Translations under genes and position numbers: made by a program
Virus record (IMG/VR): IMGVR_UViG_3300023174_000288
Span: 1 to 43,862 of that record
Reading direction: 5' to 3' (one strand)
DNA from: a virus
DNA length: 43,862 nucleotides
Notes under the pieces: model-generated
Seen by the model: the letters and a program-made list of their open reading frames with translations, nothing else
What the model was told of the DNA's origin: nothing
The model's database searches: none
Shown: positions 16,502 through 38,923 of the stretch, piece by piece
Layout: each line of letters opens with the position of its first letter
Position numbering within the stretch: position 1 is the first letter of the stretch

Positions 16502-17089
16502 ATGAAAACATTCAAAGAATATCTATCTGAAGGTAAAAAACAATACGATTTTCGTGTTAAAATCGCAGGTGATGTCACTCCTGCCCAAGAAGATCAACTA
16601 AAGTCACTATTGGGTAGATATACGCTCAGTGGTTTTAAGAAAACTACTAAAACACCTATTCAAGAATTACCGCTGGATTTTCCACACGTTAAAAATGCTG
16701 AAGTTAATATCTATGAAGTTACATTAGACTATCCTACTACACAATATGAATTAACTGAATATCTCAGTGCAGAACTTGGATGTGGTAAGCAGCATTTGGT
16801 TGTGCGTCGTCCGGGCGAGCCCAGTGAAGAATATCAGGAACCGGTTGAGAAGCGTGAAGGTGCGTTGCTAAACGACCCTGATTACAAAGAAGCAGGAACA
16901 CCTCAGTTTGAGGATTATTACGGCGACAAATACAATAGTGGATTTGTTAAAGAATTAAATGATCTACTAAAATTAGAGCGTAAGGCTAGAGGTGAGCAGA
17001 TCCCTACAGAAGGCACTGTTAAGTACAGCACCGATAGTGATGGCAACACAGCCAGTATTTTAAAAACTGCTCCCGATCCAAGGAAATAA
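16502..17089 (+). CDS. Putative head internal protein with capsid-targeting N-terminus
   Basis: The 195-residue protein begins M-K-T-F-K-E-Y-L-S-E, close to the T4 capsid-targeting sequence M-K-T-Y-Q-E-F-I-A-E that directs internal proteins into the prohead and is then removed by protease gp21 after (L/I)-x-E. The remainder (F-R-V-K-I-A-G-D-V-T-P-A-Q-E-D-Q...L-S-A-E-L-G near residue 93) looks like a small alpha/beta domain of unknown function, followed by an acidic, Pro-rich tail. Packaging into the head is therefore plausible: it could be a core component or an injected protein. It lies between the two terminase genes. Confidence 0.7.
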   Translation: MKTFKEYLSEGKKQYDFRVKIAGDVTPAQEDQLKSLLGRYTLSGFKKTTKTPIQELPLDFPHVKNAEVNIYEVTLDYPTTQYELTEYLSAELGCGKQHLVVRRPGEPSEEYQEPVEKREGALLNDPDYKEAGTPQFEDYYGDKYNSGFVKELNDLLKLERKARGEQIPTEGTVKYSTDSDGNTASILKTAPDPRK

Positions 17090-17093
17090 AATT

Positions 17094-18725
17094 ATGCAAA
17101 TGATCGATCTAATGCAAAGATTGGCCGAATTAGACGCCGGCAATCCTAATGTAATTCGCGAAGGCCAGGATAGTCCTACTCTACAACAATTAAAGGCTAT
17201 GCTACAGAAATATAGCGGCACACCATTTATATTTCAACTAAACAAACGTATTGCCGACCAACAGTGGAGAGAGGCCAACGGTAAAGGTGATCCAGTTGAT
17301 GCTTCCGGCCGTCCAGTTCCTGTGTTAAGCCCTGAAGAATTTCAAAAAAAATATCCTACATACCTTAAAACGGGAGAAAAACCTGCTCCTGCTACAGATG
17401 GAAAGAAAAACTGGTTAGTTACACCCGATGAGGCAAAAGCATCTCAAGATGCAGAAGCAGCAGCACAATTTACACTAAAAGAAAATGCCGAACTGGCCGA
17501 ATGCGGCATGATGCCCATGCCTGGCATGGGAGGACAACCTCACACTCCTGCCAGTATTTCTATGACAGCTAACAGTGGTCCAGAACTCAGTGGCATGCTA
17601 GCAGATATTATGAAACTGGCCGGTGTTCATCAGGTTGAGCCAGCACATCTAGGCATAGAACACGAACCAGCTGTGCTAACTGCCGAACCTTCTATGGATC
17701 TTGACCACGATCATAGCAACGGCGAAATCATGCGCAGTGTAATGGACAAAATGAATCCAGACATGGACGACGAGGAAGAAACAGACGAAGGTATGTGGGA
17801 TAATAGTCCAGCAGATACAGAACCACCAGCACCCTTTGATGCTAATGAATTTGCTCATCGTGAGAATCAACCTGGTCAAGGTGATCGTATGGACGGCGAC
17901 AAACCTAAAGGGTTTCCGACCATGGAAGAACAGTTGATGGCAGACTGGAAACAGTTTATGACCGAAGGTGTGGCGGAAGGCGAAGATTGGACCGGGTCAT
18001 TGTATGATCCCGACTGGTTACCAAAAGGTAAAAAAAAACCTAAACTATCCGATATAAAAGTAAAATTCCCTCCCAAAAAACAAGAACCTAAACAGCAAGG
18101 TGTGGAACCTAAACAGCAAGGTGTGGCGGGAGGATCTAAGAGTACAAAAACATACAATGATGGCATTGAGGACTCAATCGAACTACTGAAAACTTTGAGT
18201 GGTAATAGTATTGACTACATCATCGATCGGTTGCAAGATTATCAATACGCATATGAGAAGAAGCATGGTGTGGCGAAAGGCACCGGGCGTATGGAAACAT
18301 ACAATGATGGCATTGAGGACTCAATCGAACTACTGAAAACTTTGAGTGGTAATAGTATTGACTACATCATCGATCGGTTGCAAGATTATCAATACGCATA
18401 TGAGAAGAAGCAAGGTGTGGCGGAGGCTGCTAAATGGCGTCATGACGATTTAGAAGATAAGACCTGGCGTTCAGCAGATTGGGACGATGGTGATTTATCC
18501 CCAGGAAAAATACAGATTGATCGTCATGGAAAAGATGTAGATGATTCTGGAGATGAACTAAACGCTCGCCCGGGAATGTGGGGCGGAAAGTATAAGCGTA
18601 TGACTAAAAAAGGCACGCCTACTCAGCATGAACTTGGTATGCAAAATAATACCAAGATGCGTATGAAAATGCAAAACAAACAAGGTGGATTGACTGGACC
18701 CAAAGGTAGACTACCTGAAGAGTAA
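17094..18725 (+). CDS. Modular acidic protein with Gly-Val-Ala-bounded repeats, putative virion protein
   Basis: I do not recognise the 543-residue protein as a whole. It is acidic, Met/Pro/Gln-rich and apparently disordered in the middle, with L-M-Q-R-L-A-E-L near the start, D-I-M-K-L-A-G-V at about residue 175 and D-E-G-M-W-D-N-S at about 232. From residue ~290 it is built from segments bounded by (Q/E/H)-G-V-A, including two almost identical 49-residue units (Y-N-D-G-I-E-D-S-I-E-L-L...). The stop at 18723-18725 falls exactly in front of another G-V-A unit. An AAGGA precedes the ATG at 17094. Its position between terminase genes and the motif shared with the 20403-22631 protein suggest a head or core component. 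Confidence 0.7.
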   Translation: MQMIDLMQRLAELDAGNPNVIREGQDSPTLQQLKAMLQKYSGTPFIFQLNKRIADQQWREANGKGDPVDASGRPVPVLSPEEFQKKYPTYLKTGEKPAPATDGKKNWLVTPDEAKASQDAEAAAQFTLKENAELAECGMMPMPGMGGQPHTPASISMTANSGPELSGMLADIMKLAGVHQVEPAHLGIEHEPAVLTAEPSMDLDHDHSNGEIMRSVMDKMNPDMDDEEETDEGMWDNSPADTEPPAPFDANEFAHRENQPGQGDRMDGDKPKGFPTMEEQLMADWKQFMTEGVAEGEDWTGSLYDPDWLPKGKKKPKLSDIKVKFPPKKQEPKQQGVEPKQQGVAGGSKSTKTYNDGIEDSIELLKTLSGNSIDYIIDRLQDYQYAYEKKHGVAKGTGRMETYNDGIEDSIELLKTLSGNSIDYIIDRLQDYQYAYEKKQGVAEAAKWRHDDLEDKTWRSADWDDGDLSPGKIQIDRHGKDVDDSGDELNARPGMWGGKYKRMTKKGTPTQHELGMQNNTKMRMKMQNKQGGLTGPKGRLPEE

Positions 18726-18734
18726 GGTGTGGCG
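17967..18734 (+). repeat. Dispersed GGTGTGGCG boundary motif of in-frame modules
   Basis: GGTGTGGCG (Gly-Val-Ala) occurs at 17967-17975, 18120-18128, 18267-18275, 18414-18422 and 18726-18734, and as the variant GGTGTGGAA at 18099-18107. Within the coding region it is always preceded in frame by a Gln, Glu or His codon (caa, gaa, cat). The last copy lies just outside the gene, preceded by the stop codon TAA. Confidence 0.85.
18148..18422 (+). repeat. 147-bp direct duplication within the modular gene
   Basis: Positions ~18148-18275 and ~18295-18422 are identical over about 128 bp except for one base (t/a before GGTGTGGCG). The period is 147 bp (49 codons). The near identity, including third positions, points to a recent duplication or ongoing homogenisation. 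Confidence 0.93.
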
Positions 18735-18761
18735 AAAGATTAAAAATTTATAGTCTCATCC

Positions 18762-18787
18762 AAAAAGCCTCTTCGGAGGCTTTTTTT
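18762..18787 (+). terminator. Intrinsic terminator with TTCG tetraloop before gene 17
   Basis: AAAGCCTC-TTCG-GAGGCTTT forms a perfect stem with a stable tetraloop, followed by a T run. It closes the 14088-18725 transcription unit. Confidence 0.92.
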
Positions 18788-18801: not shown

Positions 18802-20388
18802 ATGGCCAAGAAAGAAAACGAATACAAACTGGTTAAAACACCATACAGTCAGATTCAATATACTGAACAGATGATTGAAGAACTGGCGAAATGTAAGGAC
18901 CCTGTCAACGGGCCGCATTACTTCCTAGACAATTTCTTCTATATACAACACCCAGTTAAGGGTAAATTAAAATACGAAGCATTTGAATATCAACGCAGAC
19001 TGATTGACAGTTATCACAATCATAGATTCAATGTAAATCTACTACCAAGACAAACAGGTAAAACCACTACAGCAGCCGGTTATCTACTGTGGTATGCTAT
19101 GTTTGTAGATAACAGCACCATACTAGTAGCAGCACATAAGCACACAGGCGCTCAAGAGATCATGTTGCGTGTTCGATATGCTTACGAACTGTGCCCTGAT
19201 CATATTCGCGCAGGTTGTACCAGTTATAACAAACAAAGCATTGAGTTTGATAACGGCAGTCGTATTGTAGCGCAGACCACTACAGAAACAACTGGTCGTG
19301 GTATGTCATTATCACTACTATACGCAGACGAGTTTGCGTTCGTGCCGCCTAACATCGCTAGTGAATTCTGGACCAGTATTTCACCTACGCTGGCCACTGG
19401 TGGTAAGGCTATTATTACCAGCACCCCTAACAGCGACGAAGATCAGTTCGCACAGATATGGCACGAAGCCAATAAACGATTTGATGAACATGGCAACAGC
19501 ACAGAAGTAGGCAAAAATGGATTCTTCCCATTCAAAGCACACTGGAGCGAACATCCTGAACGTGATGAAGAATGGGCCGAAGTTGAACGCAGTCGTATTG
19601 GCGAAGAACGATTTAGGCGAGAGCATGAATGTGAATTTTTGGTTTTCGATGAAACACTTATCAGCAGTATTAAATTGGCCGGTATAGAAGGCCGTGAACC
19701 TATAATGAAAATGGGTCAATGTCGTTGGTATAAAAAGATCAATCCTAAACACACTTATCTAGTAGCACTGGATCCTAGTCTCGGAACAGGTGGCGATCCT
19801 GCGGCTATACAGATTATGGAATTACCCAGCTTTGATCAAGTGGCAGAATGGCATCATAACCTTACTCCTATACAAGGACAGGTAAGAATACTGAGAGATA
19901 TTTGTAATCATATTAATAGCGAGTGTGCAAGAAAAGGTGTTACGCCTAGTTTATATTACAGCATTGAAAACAACAGTGTAGGTGAAGCAGCATTAGTGGC
20001 CATGGAAGAAATAGGCGAGGAAAGTGTTCCTGGATTATTTCTCAGTGAACCAGTTAAACGTGGTCATGTGCGTAGATTCCGCAAAGGATTCAATACTACA
20101 CATACCAGCAAAATATCAGCCTGTGCTAAATTAAAGCATTTAATTGAAAGCAATAGAATGACTATCAATAGTAAGCCTCTGATCAGTGAGCTTAAAACTT
20201 ATGTTGCTAAAGGTATTAGTTTTGCTGGTAAGTCCGGAACTAATGATGACTTGGTTAGCAGTGTATTGCTGGCTATACGCATGGCCATGACACTGCAAGA
20301 ATGGGATCCTAGTATATACGATAAACTAAGAGAAGAAGCCGAGGACGAGTGGATTATGCCCATGCCTATATATGTAAATACATTTTAA
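18802..20388 (+). CDS. gp17: Terminase large subunit gp17
   Basis: gp17 is the ATP-driven DNA-packaging motor and headful nuclease. In the 528-residue protein the Walker A is R-Q-T-G-K-T-T (residues 83-89), Walker B with catalytic Glu is L-L-Y-A-D-E (172-177), and the coupling motif is T-S-T-P-N. The RNase H-fold nuclease domain starts at L-V-A-L-D-P-S (Asp324) and has a late conserved Asp in G-T-N-D-D-L-V-S-S. It is somewhat shorter than T4 gp17 (610). It has its own terminator and promoter upstream, separating it from gene 16 by two other genes, whereas 16 and 17 are adjacent in T4. Confidence 0.96.
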   Translation: MAKKENEYKLVKTPYSQIQYTEQMIEELAKCKDPVNGPHYFLDNFFYIQHPVKGKLKYEAFEYQRRLIDSYHNHRFNVNLLPRQTGKTTTAAGYLLWYAMFVDNSTILVAAHKHTGAQEIMLRVRYAYELCPDHIRAGCTSYNKQSIEFDNGSRIVAQTTTETTGRGMSLSLLYADEFAFVPPNIASEFWTSISPTLATGGKAIITSTPNSDEDQFAQIWHEANKRFDEHGNSTEVGKNGFFPFKAHWSEHPERDEEWAEVERSRIGEERFRREHECEFLVFDETLISSIKLAGIEGREPIMKMGQCRWYKKINPKHTYLVALDPSLGTGGDPAAIQIMELPSFDQVAEWHHNLTPIQGQVRILRDICNHINSECARKGVTPSLYYSIENNSVGEAALVAMEEIGEESVPGLFLSEPVKRGHVRRFRKGFNTTHTSKISACAKLKHLIESNRMTINSKPLISELKTYVAKGISFAGKSGTNDDLVSSVLLAIRMAMTLQEWDPSIYDKLREEAEDEWIMPMPIYVNTF

Positions 20389-20402: not shown

Positions 20403-22631
20403 ATGAAAGCCATTCAGATAATCAGTCAAGATGTATTTGACAAAGTTCGCAGTCGTTTCAGTAATTTAGAAATGGGCGACGAGACCGGTGCTGTGACCAT
20501 TGATCCGGCACAAGCACGTTTTTTTGATTTTGACTTTATTCACGAAGGTAATAACCTAGGTCGTGTCAGTATCAGTCTAAATGATCTAGGTAGTCTCAAA
20601 GTTTATTACAGTCAAGGTATTACAGAAAATCAAGATGATCCCCTCAAACAGACTTGGTACGATTTCTTAAAAGAAATGCGTTTCTTTGCCATGCGTAGAC
20701 TGTTGAGATTTGATACTAGAGACATTGCCAAAAACAACCTTGACAAAAATGATTTCCAGCATCTAGCTGCGACCCAAGGCCCTAAGGAAGAAGAACCTAT
20801 GAACACCGTAAATGAAAGCCGTTGGAACCACAAGAGTTCGCGCAAAACCAGCCGTGCTGTCCAAGGACGCACTGAAGTCATTGTAAGACATCACAAACCA
20901 GTAGACGAAGATTTTGCTGGTTCGCGTAGCCAACGTAAAAACATCAAGGCAATTTTTATTCAAAATAGAGATGGTGAGCGTTTTAAATATCCGTTCATCC
21001 ATCCAGCAGGCGCATTTGCCATGGCGCAACACGTAGATCACGGTGGCATCCCACATGACCCAGCAGGCCGTGCTATTATTAAAATGAGCGAGGAAATTGC
21101 TCAACTAGGCGAATTTCAAAGAAAAGTTCAACATCAAACACTACACGACGACGCTACAGGAATAAAAGAAAGGGCTGTAGGCCGACTTACAGAATTAAAA
21201 TCGAAAATTGCTGCAATAGGCAAGCGTCAATATTATGAAAATTGGTTAGCAGAATTTAACGAGCAAGAACAATTAGACGACGACATGATGGAACTTGATG
21301 CTGTCACAATGGAAGACTATAAGAGTAAATTTACACAGAAAAATTTCCAAGAAGAACTTACACAATATTTCCCATTAATACATCGCATCATGAGCGAAAA
21401 GATTGAATTAGAAGATCTAGTCAAAGAAGAAGATGATACAGAAGATGAAGAAGATGACAAAGAAGTTAAAGAAAGCATATTTAAAGAATTTGAAGATTGG
21501 GCAGACGCAACAGAACGCGGCGAACTGACTGACGATCAAGTTGAGGCAATCAAACAGGCATTAGAGCAACTACCCGAACCATTGCAATTAGGCCCCAATG
21601 GAGAAACAGCCATTAACTTTTTTAGCGAACTAGGCTTAGATGACGAAGAACTAAATCAAAATTTTGAAGATGAGGCAAGAATTGATAGTGAAGCAGATCC
21701 AATGGAAGATGTATTTGTTCCTTGGGCAAAAGAAAATCAACCCAGCTTATTAGATAAACTAGGCATTAATTATACAGATAAAGAAGGCGAATCACCTGAA
21801 CCTGCGGCAGCAGTTGGAGCAGAACAACCGGCTCCGGCACCTGCCGCACCACCTGCTCCGGAGCCAGGTACAGAGCAGCCTACCGCAGAAATGACACAAC
21901 CGGAAGGCCGTGGCACCGCTACGGTCCATGGTATCATGTCGGCAGAGAATGATGAAGGTATGTGGACCAACAGCACCATGACAGCAGAAAGTCGATCGGG
22001 TATGGTTCAAAAGATTGCCGAAATCGTTAAGAGTCGTTTTAATGAAGACAATCCCGATGTGGGCGCATTTAGAGATCCAGAGAACATTGCCACTGAAGTT
22101 AAGAAAGAAATTTCTGAAAAATACGGCGAAGAAATGGGAGAACGTGCTCGAGAAATGGCCGAGCAATTTATGGAAAAACTCACACGACGTTGGGCTAAAA
22201 AACACGGCAAAGTCAATGATGTAGATGGACTGGCTCGTATCAAAGAACTCAGCGGAATGCCCGCTGAACCAGAAATGGACGAAGGCGCAATGAGCGAAAG
22301 AGATATTGATTTCCAAAATGACCTACCTGAAATGATTGCTGCACTCAAGAGCAAAAAGGTTAATGCCGGAGATATGCGTCGCCATTTTGGCAGCAGTTGG
22401 AAGCACTTAGTCGGTATGACACCTACATTTGCTGGTAAGAATCCTACCAGATCTGAAATATTAAAAACAGCAATGGAAATGCAAAGCGAGTACGAACCGG
22501 CGGATCCATATGCTGATGATTACGCCCCTGGTCATGGCGACGGTGCCCACGATGATATGGACAGTGCATTTGATCAAGCACGTGAACGTGGCGAAATGGA
22601 AAGCATGTTGAAGTTGGCCGGATTGAAATAA
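20403..22631 (+). CDS. Large acidic putative virion protein
   Basis: The 742-residue protein is not recognised. Residues ~1-115 look globular (F-F-D-F-D-F-I-H-E-G...M-R-F-F-A-M-R-R-L-L-R-F-D-T-R-D). Residues ~130-330 are basic then helical. The middle (~345-430) is very acidic, and residues ~480-515 are a Pro/Ala/Glu linker. It then carries D-E-G-M-W-T-N-S at about residue 517, shared with the 17094-18725 protein, and ends in E-S-M-L-K-L-A-G-L-K, resembling L-A-G motifs in two other window proteins. A late promoter and its position after gene 17 suggest a structural or core function. A terminator-like hairpin follows it. Confidence 0.65.
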   Translation: MKAIQIISQDVFDKVRSRFSNLEMGDETGAVTIDPAQARFFDFDFIHEGNNLGRVSISLNDLGSLKVYYSQGITENQDDPLKQTWYDFLKEMRFFAMRRLLRFDTRDIAKNNLDKNDFQHLAATQGPKEEEPMNTVNESRWNHKSSRKTSRAVQGRTEVIVRHHKPVDEDFAGSRSQRKNIKAIFIQNRDGERFKYPFIHPAGAFAMAQHVDHGGIPHDPAGRAIIKMSEEIAQLGEFQRKVQHQTLHDDATGIKERAVGRLTELKSKIAAIGKRQYYENWLAEFNEQEQLDDDMMELDAVTMEDYKSKFTQKNFQEELTQYFPLIHRIMSEKIELEDLVKEEDDTEDEEDDKEVKESIFKEFEDWADATERGELTDDQVEAIKQALEQLPEPLQLGPNGETAINFFSELGLDDEELNQNFEDEARIDSEADPMEDVFVPWAKENQPSLLDKLGINYTDKEGESPEPAAAVGAEQPAPAPAAPPAPEPGTEQPTAEMTQPEGRGTATVHGIMSAENDEGMWTNSTMTAESRSGMVQKIAEIVKSRFNEDNPDVGAFRDPENIATEVKKEISEKYGEEMGERAREMAEQFMEKLTRRWAKKHGKVNDVDGLARIKELSGMPAEPEMDEGAMSERDIDFQNDLPEMIAALKSKKVNAGDMRRHFGSSWKHLVGMTPTFAGKNPTRSEILKTAMEMQSEYEPADPYADDYAPGHGDGAHDDMDSAFDQARERGEMESMLKLAGLK

Positions 22632-36949: not shown

Positions 36950-38923
36950 ATGAATCTCGAAGATCTTAATTCTATTATTCGATTAGCAGGTATTAAACGG
37001 AATATTTCCGAAGATGGTATGCCTACCCCAGGATATGACGGCAGCGGTAATCGATTAAAAACAGGACCTGAGGTAAAACCAACTCCTTTAACTAGTACTG
37101 ACGGTAAACCTGTTGGTACATCGACTCCCGGTTTAAATGTAAACGAACCACAACCAGCAGCAACACCGGGATTAGGAAATGCACCTGCCCCAGCAAAACC
37201 GGATGCTGTTGGTTCTAACAAACCCGAGGTTGCACCCGCTAAGGTTTCAACGCAAGCGGTCAATTCTCCTAAGATTGATATTCAAACAATAAATCCGGCT
37301 GGTCAACAATCAGGGGCAGCACCGGAAGCAGGCACATCTAGAGTCGATCCTGATGTACAAGCACAAGTAAATAGGCTAAGAGCCGAGTATAATAATTCAT
37401 CAGGGACAGTAGCACCCGAACCGGCACCAGCAGCAACATTACCCCCGGGTGTTAATCCAGAAAATGGAATACAACAGTATACCCCAGTTGACTATTCAAA
37501 AGATAAACTTAAAGAACCTCCGGGGGCAGCTAAGAAAAAAGTATTAGCACCAGTTGATCCAGATTTACAAGCCGTTCAAAAAGTTCTATCGGGAATAGAT
37601 CCTAAATATAAAGAACTACTCGGGCCATACGGAGCAGATGGTAGAATAGGAAAATATACTCGAAACGCCTTGGCCCAATATATCAAAGATGTTCCTAGTG
37701 CAAAAGAACATGACGTACTGAAACCTATACTTACAAAATATGGAATAATAGCATCGGGACCTACACCTGCATCGGGTGCAAGTGGAGAATCAACCCCTAG
37801 TACATTTTCACAAGATGCTGCCGAAAGAAAAGCAGCTATGAAAAATGCAGCGGCAGCGGCATCAACAGCGCCATCAACAGCGCCATCGGGGCCAGCAGTA
37901 TCACCGATACCGACATCAGCACTGCCGCCTGGCCCATCTGGAGCAATAGTGCCAGGTTCGTTAACACCGGGATTAGGAAATGCACCTGCCCCAGCAAAAC
38001 CGGCAGCGGCAACACCGGCAACGACCCCGGCAGCGGCGCCAACGACCCCGGCAACAGGAGGGTCTGCTAAAGAAGTTCGTCAACGCATACAATCACTAGC
38101 TGACAAATATAAGGTATCTGAATCGAGATTGACCCCGGTTGGTCAAATACAGAAATTTCGACAATTGGTAGATGAAGCAGAAGCCGAAGCCATAGCCGCA
38201 GAAAAAAAGGCAAAAGCAACACCATCGACTCCGGCAAAATCAGCAGCGGTAACAACACCGGCAAGTACTACCAACCCACCAACAACAACAGAACCAAAAT
38301 TAGGAAATGTAGAACCCGTAGCAGGAAAGCCAGAACTAAAATTAGGAAATGTAGAACCCGTAGCAGGAAAGCCAGAACCAAAATTAGGAAATGTAGAACC
38401 TGTAGGAACACCACCGCCAAAAGCAGGTACTCCGGTTCCAGGAACCCCAGGATATGAATTTACCGGAGAGGTAGATGCCAAAGGTAGACCAAAAGCAAGA
38501 AAAATAATCGTACCACCGGCGGCAATAGAAGCCGAAGTAACAGCAGCTCAACAGGCTGGAAAACTAGGTCTTAAACAAGCACTTCCTAGAGTATTAGGAA
38601 TGACCACCCGTGCGGTATCATTTGCACTTGGGTGGAGAGTAGCGGCTGCGTATGCGGCAATGGAAGCCATTTCATGGATGTATGATTGGGCCGCTGAAAA
38701 CGGCGGTAGAGTTAATATCAGTCGCGAAGATATGGTACAATTAGGCAAAGATAAACAAGCTCTCGAGACACTGGCCAGTAACAAAAATCTCACTCCGGAA
38801 GAACAAAAAGATGTAGCAGCATCAATGGAACAAATGGCTAGGCTACTGGCCAATAGTGAAAGCATTGAAAGCGCATGGGCTAAGGTAGGAATTCCTGGTC
38901 GCTCAGGAGCACCTAAACAATAA
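36950..38923 (+). CDS. Low-complexity putative virion protein with peptidoglycan-binding-like domain
   Basis: The 657-residue protein begins with N-S-I-I-R-L-A-G-I (residues ~7-15), a motif echoed in two other window proteins, then a long Pro/Ala/Thr linker. Residues ~203-245 (D-L-Q-A-V-Q-K-V-L-S-G...G-A-D-G-R-I-G-K-Y-T-R-N-A-L) look like a PG_binding_1 peptidoglycan-binding repeat. More low-complexity linker follows, then three 14-residue tandem repeats (~450-487). Residues ~553-582 are a hydrophobic helical stretch, possibly membrane-associated (F-A-L-G-W-R-V-A-A-A-Y-A-A-M). A cell-wall or entry role is inferred. A late promoter precedes it. Confidence 0.7.
   Translation: MNLEDLNSIIRLAGIKRNISEDGMPTPGYDGSGNRLKTGPEVKPTPLTSTDGKPVGTSTPGLNVNEPQPAATPGLGNAPAPAKPDAVGSNKPEVAPAKVSTQAVNSPKIDIQTINPAGQQSGAAPEAGTSRVDPDVQAQVNRLRAEYNNSSGTVAPEPAPAATLPPGVNPENGIQQYTPVDYSKDKLKEPPGAAKKKVLAPVDPDLQAVQKVLSGIDPKYKELLGPYGADGRIGKYTRNALAQYIKDVPSAKEHDVLKPILTKYGIIASGPTPASGASGESTPSTFSQDAAERKAAMKNAAAAASTAPSTAPSGPAVSPIPTSALPPGPSGAIVPGSLTPGLGNAPAPAKPAAATPATTPAAAPTTPATGGSAKEVRQRIQSLADKYKVSESRLTPVGQIQKFRQLVDEAEAEAIAAEKKAKATPSTPAKSAAVTTPASTTNPPTTTEPKLGNVEPVAGKPELKLGNVEPVAGKPEPKLGNVEPVGTPPPKAGTPVPGTPGYEFTGEVDAKGRPKARKIIVPPAAIEAEVTAAQQAGKLGLKQALPRVLGMTTRAVSFALGWRVAAAYAAMEAISWMYDWAAENGGRVNISREDMVQLGKDKQALETLASNKNLTPEEQKDVAASMEQMARLLANSESIESAWAKVGIPGRSGAPKQ
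38296..38409 (+). repeat. Three tandem 42-bp repeats
   Basis: Units starting near 38296, 38338 and 38380 code for K-L-G-N-V-E-P-V-A-G-K-P-E-(L/P); the last is incomplete. They are almost identical, which suggests recent expansion of a linker. Confidence 0.9.

Follow-up and report, generated by a model that had tools for sequence, protein, structure and literature searches.

The window analysed here, the whole of a 43,862-base virus record in IMG/VR, carries one allele of a cassette system that is widespread in T4-like phages, and this cassette system is well supported. Its joints were either one 18-nt sequence, CAAGGTGTGGCGGAAGGC (Q-G-V-A-E-G), or resembled diverged copies of it, and it is at these joints that cassettes come and go, duplicate and change order, far more quickly than their sequences diverge. 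The best reading, and in our judgment probably the correct one, is that of a shufflable, protease-processed polyprotein of head cargo whose joint is conserved in DNA as well as in protein. The cleavage of the joints by a protease and the packaging of the cassettes in the head are what we infer from sequence patterns.

The array gene and its stop codon

The window encodes T4-like tail sheath, tail tube, terminase, single-strand binding protein, UvsX and UvsY. Its array lies in a virion-type gene of 543 codons on the plus strand (17094-18725), defined by its open reading frame and translation, with orthologues in the corresponding position in L249, L298 and L299. A native part is followed by three cassette types, one of them duplicated, and then by the changed stop. 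The N-terminus MQMIDLMQRLAE (17094-17129, plus strand) ends in Phi-x-E (hydrophobic-x-Glu) and is a putative capsid-targeting sequence, by comparison with MKTYQEFIAE at the N-termini of T4 ipII and ipIII. The neighbouring virion-type gene at 16502-17089 (plus strand; PHROG virion structural protein, E 0.00068; 34% to PA5oct gp282) starts with MKTFKEYLSE-G, like the T4 capsid-targeting sequence. Downstream on the same strand lie a terminator-like hairpin (18762-18787) with the same core in L298, L299 and L249, the gene for the terminase large subunit (18802-20388), which provided a syntenic anchor, and a virion structural gene (20403-22631) with a site near 20795-20809 (VNE-SRWN) that is empty in the window but occupied in L242 by about 1.3 kb of array.

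The core GGTGTGGCG occurred five times in the window, always on the plus strand (at 17967, 18120, 18267, 18414 and 18726), whereas shuffled windows had 0.16 on average and never more than 2. Four copies are in frame within the gene, after GAA, CAA, CAT and CAA, respectively. Joint 1 (17967-17975) follows the insertion site FMTE (17955-17966), which is the Phi-x-E end of the native protein according to orthologue ends and the L298 alignment. After joint 1 comes GAA (Glu), and joint 4 (18414-18422) is also followed by Glu; joints 2 (18120-18128) and 3 (18267-18275) are followed by Gly and Lys, respectively, without Glu. Cassette 1 (17976-18119; EGEDWTGSLYDPD...KQQ) matched L127 at 63.8% over 94 amino acids, in another order there. 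Translation and repeat comparison identified cassette 2b (18276-18413) as a duplicate of cassette 2a (18129-18266; YNDGIEDSIELLKTLSGN...), with 18295-18408 equal to 18148-18261 (114/114). The duplicated unit spans 147 nt (18115-18261 and 18262-18408) and is 92% identical; all 12 differences fall within its first 33 nt, around the joint, and the other 114 nt are identical, so that it was not a simple joint-to-joint duplication. Cassette 3 (18423-18722; EAAKWRHDDLEDKTW...GPKGRLPEE) matched L126 at 72% over 107 amino acids and L127 at 89% over 38.

The first-pass annotation had taken the stop TAA (18723-18725) for a changed boundary codon, with G-V-A-K-D as the older C-terminus, and both proposals were borne out. 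The fifth joint (18726-18734), an exact match that is now untranslated, directly follows the stop without a change of frame, and from it the sequence reads GVAKD and ends at TAA. Cassette 3 has two homologous loci in the collection, and both carry Gln CAA at the position of the stop: L127 reads ...GGLTGPKGPLPKQ-CAA-GGTGTGGCG, with the window's cassettes present but arranged in a different order, and L126 reads ...GGLTGPKGMLPEE-CAA-GGTGTGGAGG. Of 392 cores from 197 loci, only this fifth one of the window had a stop immediately 5' of it. We take the stop to be a mutated joint boundary codon, formerly Gln CAA.

Syntenic array-free relatives end with F-Phi-x-E and two further residues (FVTE-TR* in L298, FVTE-NR* in L299 and FISE-NN* in L249). 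Judging from these ends, the C-terminus before the mutation was Q-GVA-KD*, with K-D-stop (AAA GAT TAA, 18735-18743) as the native end of the gene, the counterpart of TR*, NR* and NN*. L298 runs collinear with the window, the two being 85-91% identical as DNA, and its alignment breaks at 17965 of the window and picks up at 18760. Together with the ends of the relatives, this gap places the window array (17967-18734) between FMTE and the native KD*. The array is flanked on both sides by a GVA joint, and the GVAKD tail is a joint plus the native end. No homologue was found with the same end and no GVA remnant; the array-free relatives end at the array start. The array was inserted between FMTE and KD*, and the present stop arose afterwards, when the CAA of the last joint underwent a C-to-T change.

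A survey of orthologues by an N-terminal pattern kept 33 distinct proteins (an earlier pattern had found 12); none was found for 56 loci, many of them cut by contig ends. Fourteen of the 33 end 0 to 2 residues past an anchor resembling [YW]KxF-Phi-x-E, and P1 in these empty C-terminal sites was E in 11 and G in 3. Different tails were found in 13 others, and 6 were without the anchor. Five further array genes end 4 to 11 codons from a GVAE joint, so such ends recur. Read-through of the window stop, whose product would differ by six residues only, found no support.

The joint in viral DNA and the exchange of cassettes

The motif is not confined to the window, since the 18-mer was found in at least 120 stretches of viral_contigs (IMG/VR), as was the 14-mer AAGGTGTGGCGGAA. 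The reversed 18-mer gave no match in viral_contigs, and a synonymous 18-mer in commoner codons, expected from codon usage to be about 7 times commoner, gave 8. Likewise, GGTGTGGCGGAA had 87 matches in 32 large records chosen from the loci, against 0 for the backward control. In the first loci and the window, the longest open frame reads 206 of 216 cores as GGT GTG GCG, and 77 of the 85 core spacings below 2 kb were multiples of three; the 10 cores outside that frame reflect a minority of loci drawn from the 14-mer that are chance matches. All 98 sites in a further 74 loci were in this frame. Shuffles, the codon expectation and the reversed and synonymous controls together ruled out chance or codon bias as the origin of the motif. 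An origin in hosts was also considered and rejected: the 26 matches in genome_contigs were single, came at a G+C of 0.53 to 0.74 and in inconsistent frames, and were chance-like. Nor did they form arrays, as they did not cluster and a second core was present in 4 of the 26 loci only.

From 197 viral loci, the window included, we retained 213 ORFs whose cores are in frame, with 526 recognisable joints, which generalises the GVA-bounded modules that the first-pass annotation had described in this one gene. The cassettes are strung in frame in virion-type genes, with a median length of 79 residues. The 310 internal cassettes fell into 235 families, 50 of them with at least two members. When ORFs of different loci were compared as DNA, 385 of 1,864 internal ends of homology blocks lay at a joint in both ORFs, 38 times more than at random (mean 10.1, maximum 18); because the blocks are not independent observations, we rely on the size of the effect. 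Seventy blocks ran from joint to joint. We then paired homologous internal cassettes that came from different loci, were less than 98% identical and had both neighbours readable, which gave 98 pairs. The left neighbour was common in 3 pairs, the right in 1 and both in none, so that a neighbour was shared in 4 of the 98. Between the neighbours L199 and L231, which are 96% identical, a 318-nt unit lying between two joint copies has been exactly gained or lost. These data agree with the earlier suggestion that modules duplicate or move without breaking the frame.

The joint is also uniform as DNA. Of the GVA[EK] occurrences beyond one per ORF, 71 of 103 were spelled GGTGTGGCG, compared with about 1% expected from codon usage. 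Third-position identity was 0.87 at the joints where that of the cassettes was 0.45 (n=39), and 0.84 where it was 0.56 (n=72), against 0.44 expected at joints for independent codons; the two joint values are conditioned on recognisable joints. Without this condition, the exact core was present in 47 of the 168 partners that made up the most diverged class, 63 had no joint (at least 7 mismatches), and partners with up to 6 mismatches had a third-position identity of 0.84. The unconditioned comparison is weaker and agrees with the conditioned one. Since the third positions of joints are alike though the cassettes are saturated, the joint is kept, or re-supplied, as DNA. Joints shared between diverged phages were tried as a direct test of a constraint on DNA and set aside as uninformative, since there were only 26 spanned joints and the third-position identity of their flanks was about 0.98 overall. 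Another reading would be that tail or adhesion proteins undergo ordinary domain shuffling and retain QGVAEG only for the sake of protein structure. It would suit the virion-type genes; with synonymous encodings rare and third positions alike at joints while those of cassettes are saturated, we find it hardly credible.

The repeated joint may serve homologous recombination of the UvsX/UvsY type, by which cassettes would be exchanged and the joint itself kept uniform as DNA; this step is suggested by the exchange patterns. Alternatively, the joint could be recognised by an enzyme dedicated to moving cassettes, either a site-specific recombinase or a homing-type nuclease, as in integron or homing systems. 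A near-invariant 18-nt joint across diverged phages and the exact 318-nt difference between L199 and L231 are what such an enzyme would produce. However, the joint is not palindromic, the window array has no cassette-borne inverted repeat, an unsystematic search found no enzyme gene linked to the arrays, and some empty sites have only Phi-x-E without GVA DNA. We therefore consider a dedicated enzyme quite improbable. Between 17000 and 18800 of the window, inverted repeats lie close together only in the terminator-like hairpin that follows the gene, and the two other pairs are 15 nt long and 281 to 421 nt apart. Integron-type cassettes, by comparison, have a palindromic attC-like site and an integrase, and the window joints have no inverted repeat.

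As for the content of the cassettes, 60 proteins compared with Pfam matched 16 families, mostly with 1 to 3 members each, including GNAT, ParB_N, deaminase and NT5C, and DUF6321 in 6. None of the 60 matched a PADLOC defence model, and the window cassettes had no match in the PDB. An ADP-ribosyltransferase guess is not claimed, because the pLDDT of two AlphaFold models (52 and 38) was too low. A 'structural protein' (T4 GC0119) of the cultured cyanophage Synechococcus phage S-E7 (L286, 3047-4636) has array cassette types, for example, KDACYHKVKSRYxVWPSAYASGALVKCRKKGA, which are there without GVAE joints.

Protein sequence at joints and empty sites

Beyond the first-pass annotation, the comparison brought out the extent of the DNA conservation and a second property of the joint, a retained hydrophobic-x-Glu that is like a prohead-protease site. 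Among 93 diverged joints (up to 4 mismatches, core not exact; a codon-shuffled control gave 1 site), Glu was kept in 91 and a hydrophobic V, M, I or L in 92. In the same joints, the second base of the Gly codon was changed in 23, and the Ala codon had often become one for Glu, Thr, Ser or Val. Joints outside the window that had not been used for ascertainment kept Glu in 166 of 172 cases.

Sites without an array were examined in pairs of filled and empty loci. From 95 candidates, 42 non-redundant joints were retained, in frame and inside an ORF, each flank being 60 nt or longer; the inside-ORF rule left out the window/L249 pair, which was counted apart. The empty site had [VILM]xE in 33 of the 42, compared with 7.3 expected. 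This was true of 16 of 18 empty joints with a GVA edge, and of 17 of 24 without any GVA edge (4.6 expected). D, Q, K, R, S, T, G, A and others were not in excess at P1 of these sites. Examples are LME-DWQK in L027, filled in L094, and VMKE-NFADG in L204, filled in L046.

The Phi-x-Glu of the joints resembles the cleavage sites of T4 gp21, which is described as cleaving after L/I-X-E (PMC9026906), with the reservation that Val at P3 lies outside the published gp21 motif. We propose that the joint may be the cleavage site of a gp21-type prohead protease. Joints 2 and 3 of the window, followed by Gly and Lys, should then not be cut. If the joint is a cleavage site, a new cassette would be best tolerated there and would become extra, independent cargo.

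A simpler view is that the joints are neutral recombination scars in fast-evolving virion proteins, with GVAE as a permissive, flexible and uncut linker. DNA uniformity and rapid re-ordering need no protease, and Glu is lost at the two window joints. Yet neutral scars should lose Glu like Gly and Ala, which is contrary to the retention of Glu and of the hydrophobic residue in the diverged joints, and joints lacking a GVA edge are still mostly [VILM]xE. Weighing both sides, we regard neutral scars as unlikely.

Relation to the phage head and to known systems

In T4, the first ten residues of IPIII are described as directing proteins into the head (PMC9026906). We looked for similar features in the array genes. 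[LI]xE was present within the first 17 residues of 72 of 137 array ORFs (65 were without it), compared with 185 of 915 others, and a strict capsid-targeting-like pattern in 25 of 145 array ORFs, compared with 65 of 1,119 others. Where N-termini read M[KR]xx[ED]hh-x, the next residue was E in 115 of 163, with I (68), L (24) or V (23) at P3. Starts like MRAxEF[IVL]xE, similar to capsid-targeting sequences, were also found on many genes without GVA joints, several per genome and with variable codons. Such array-free genes were seen, for example, in L007, L016, L044, L063, L081 and L240, and they may be further head cargo of a single cassette. In the window, the sequence from 41397 downwards on the minus strand (MRIVELITEQSAN...) also has a capsid-targeting-like N-terminus, and what follows it looks like a lytic transglycosylase.

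Genes of the head itself were sought in 28 large array-bearing records, a chosen subset of the loci. Pfam Peptidase_S77 was found in 8 and had no match in 20. In all 8, scaffold and capsid genes adjoin the protease gene, and the capsid N-termini offer LxE-S/A/N sites. One contig with S77 (G024, the contig of L112) belongs to the window's nearest relative and also carries the L298 segment, an empty site at 85-91% to the window. No protease, scaffold or capsid gene was identified in the 43.9-kb fragment that forms the window. PA5oct gp281 and gp282, at the places of the window genes starting at 17094 and 16502, are annotated as structural proteins by ESI-MS/MS; since the 17094 product and gp281 share little sequence, the evidence from gp281 is positional.

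A motif [KR]LAG[LVI] was noted in the window at 17610, at the end of the gene at 20403-22631 and at the start of that at 36950-38923, as well as in the scaffold genes beside S77. The window forms (MKLAGV, MLKLAGLK and IIRLAGIK) resemble the scaffold C-terminus KRLAGL/RKLAGL. The core motif of this scaffold-like C-terminus was mildly enriched (1.8 versus 0.74 per 10,000 residues).

The head-cargo polyprotein would work as follows. The N-terminal targeting peptide would lead the chain into the prohead core, where it would be cut into separate internal proteins, and these, once freed, may be delivered with the DNA. In often having a short N-terminal M[KR]..Phi-x-E peptide, in their Phi-x-E sites, and in the T4-type protease, scaffold and capsid genes of the 8 records, the arrays are like the T4 internal head proteins (IPI, IPII, IPIII and Alt). 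The T4 proteins are separate single genes; here, in contrast, one gene strings many cassettes together and has the sites in between, P3 is often V, and the joint is fixed as DNA. We also put forward, as an idea slightly too bold to be called probable, that T4-like and jumbo phages draw on one pool of in-frame cargo cassettes, whose joint carries a dual code: an address for DNA recombination that serves diverged phages alike, and a site for the maturation protease that frees the cassettes inside the capsid. If so, virion payloads would be re-assembled like beads on a string, faster than sequences diverge, and a cassette dropped at a joint would become an injected protein.

Conserved junctions for module exchange are known from polymorphic toxins, in which a sequence such as VENN in CdiA marks the exchange and one C-terminal module changes. 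In the arrays, by contrast, it is entire chains of internal cassettes that change, and the junction is conserved at the DNA level. Rickettsia palindromic elements are short in-frame insertions into protein genes. Unlike them, the arrays have no palindrome, and their diverse cassettes mostly show no relation to one another, with the joint alone in common. Iyer et al. (2017, PMC5512222) describe the polyvalent proteins of phages and conjugative elements, long phage proteins made up of several domains in mosaic order, for which packaging and injection have been proposed. The arrays similarly combine several domains variably in each polypeptide, beside terminase and structural genes. Effector domains known from polyvalent proteins include metallopeptidase, ART and ParB-like domains. 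However, the array cassettes are small and mostly unlike Pfam domains; as far as it goes, the description of polyvalent proteins contains no common joint sequence, and it assigns autoproteolysis to a metallopeptidase domain (PMC5512222), which was not seen in the arrays (no metallopeptidase was found in the 60 proteins compared with Pfam). Searches of open-licence papers brought up nothing about the GVAE-joint system apart from PMC5512222, and such absence is weak evidence.

If it holds, the head-cargo reading accounts for the renewal of injected phage proteins: the payload would be modular and processed by a protease, and its units would share a joint, much as in cassette systems but within single genes. 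GVAE joints and Phi-x-E N-termini would then give a sequence handle for unannotated head-cargo proteins in environmental phages, and it would become testable whether the DNA identity of a short linker drives intragenic exchange between distant phages.

A different interruption was observed in the terminase large-subunit gene of L298, which is broken by about 1.1 kb (L298:6338-7453) at window position 19630-19632. Rfam found no intron in this insert. Its open frames (CITGNSIISVKW... and ...NHRFYANDILVKN-C) look to us like a split intein, with a frame between them that we take to be an HNH-type endonuclease.
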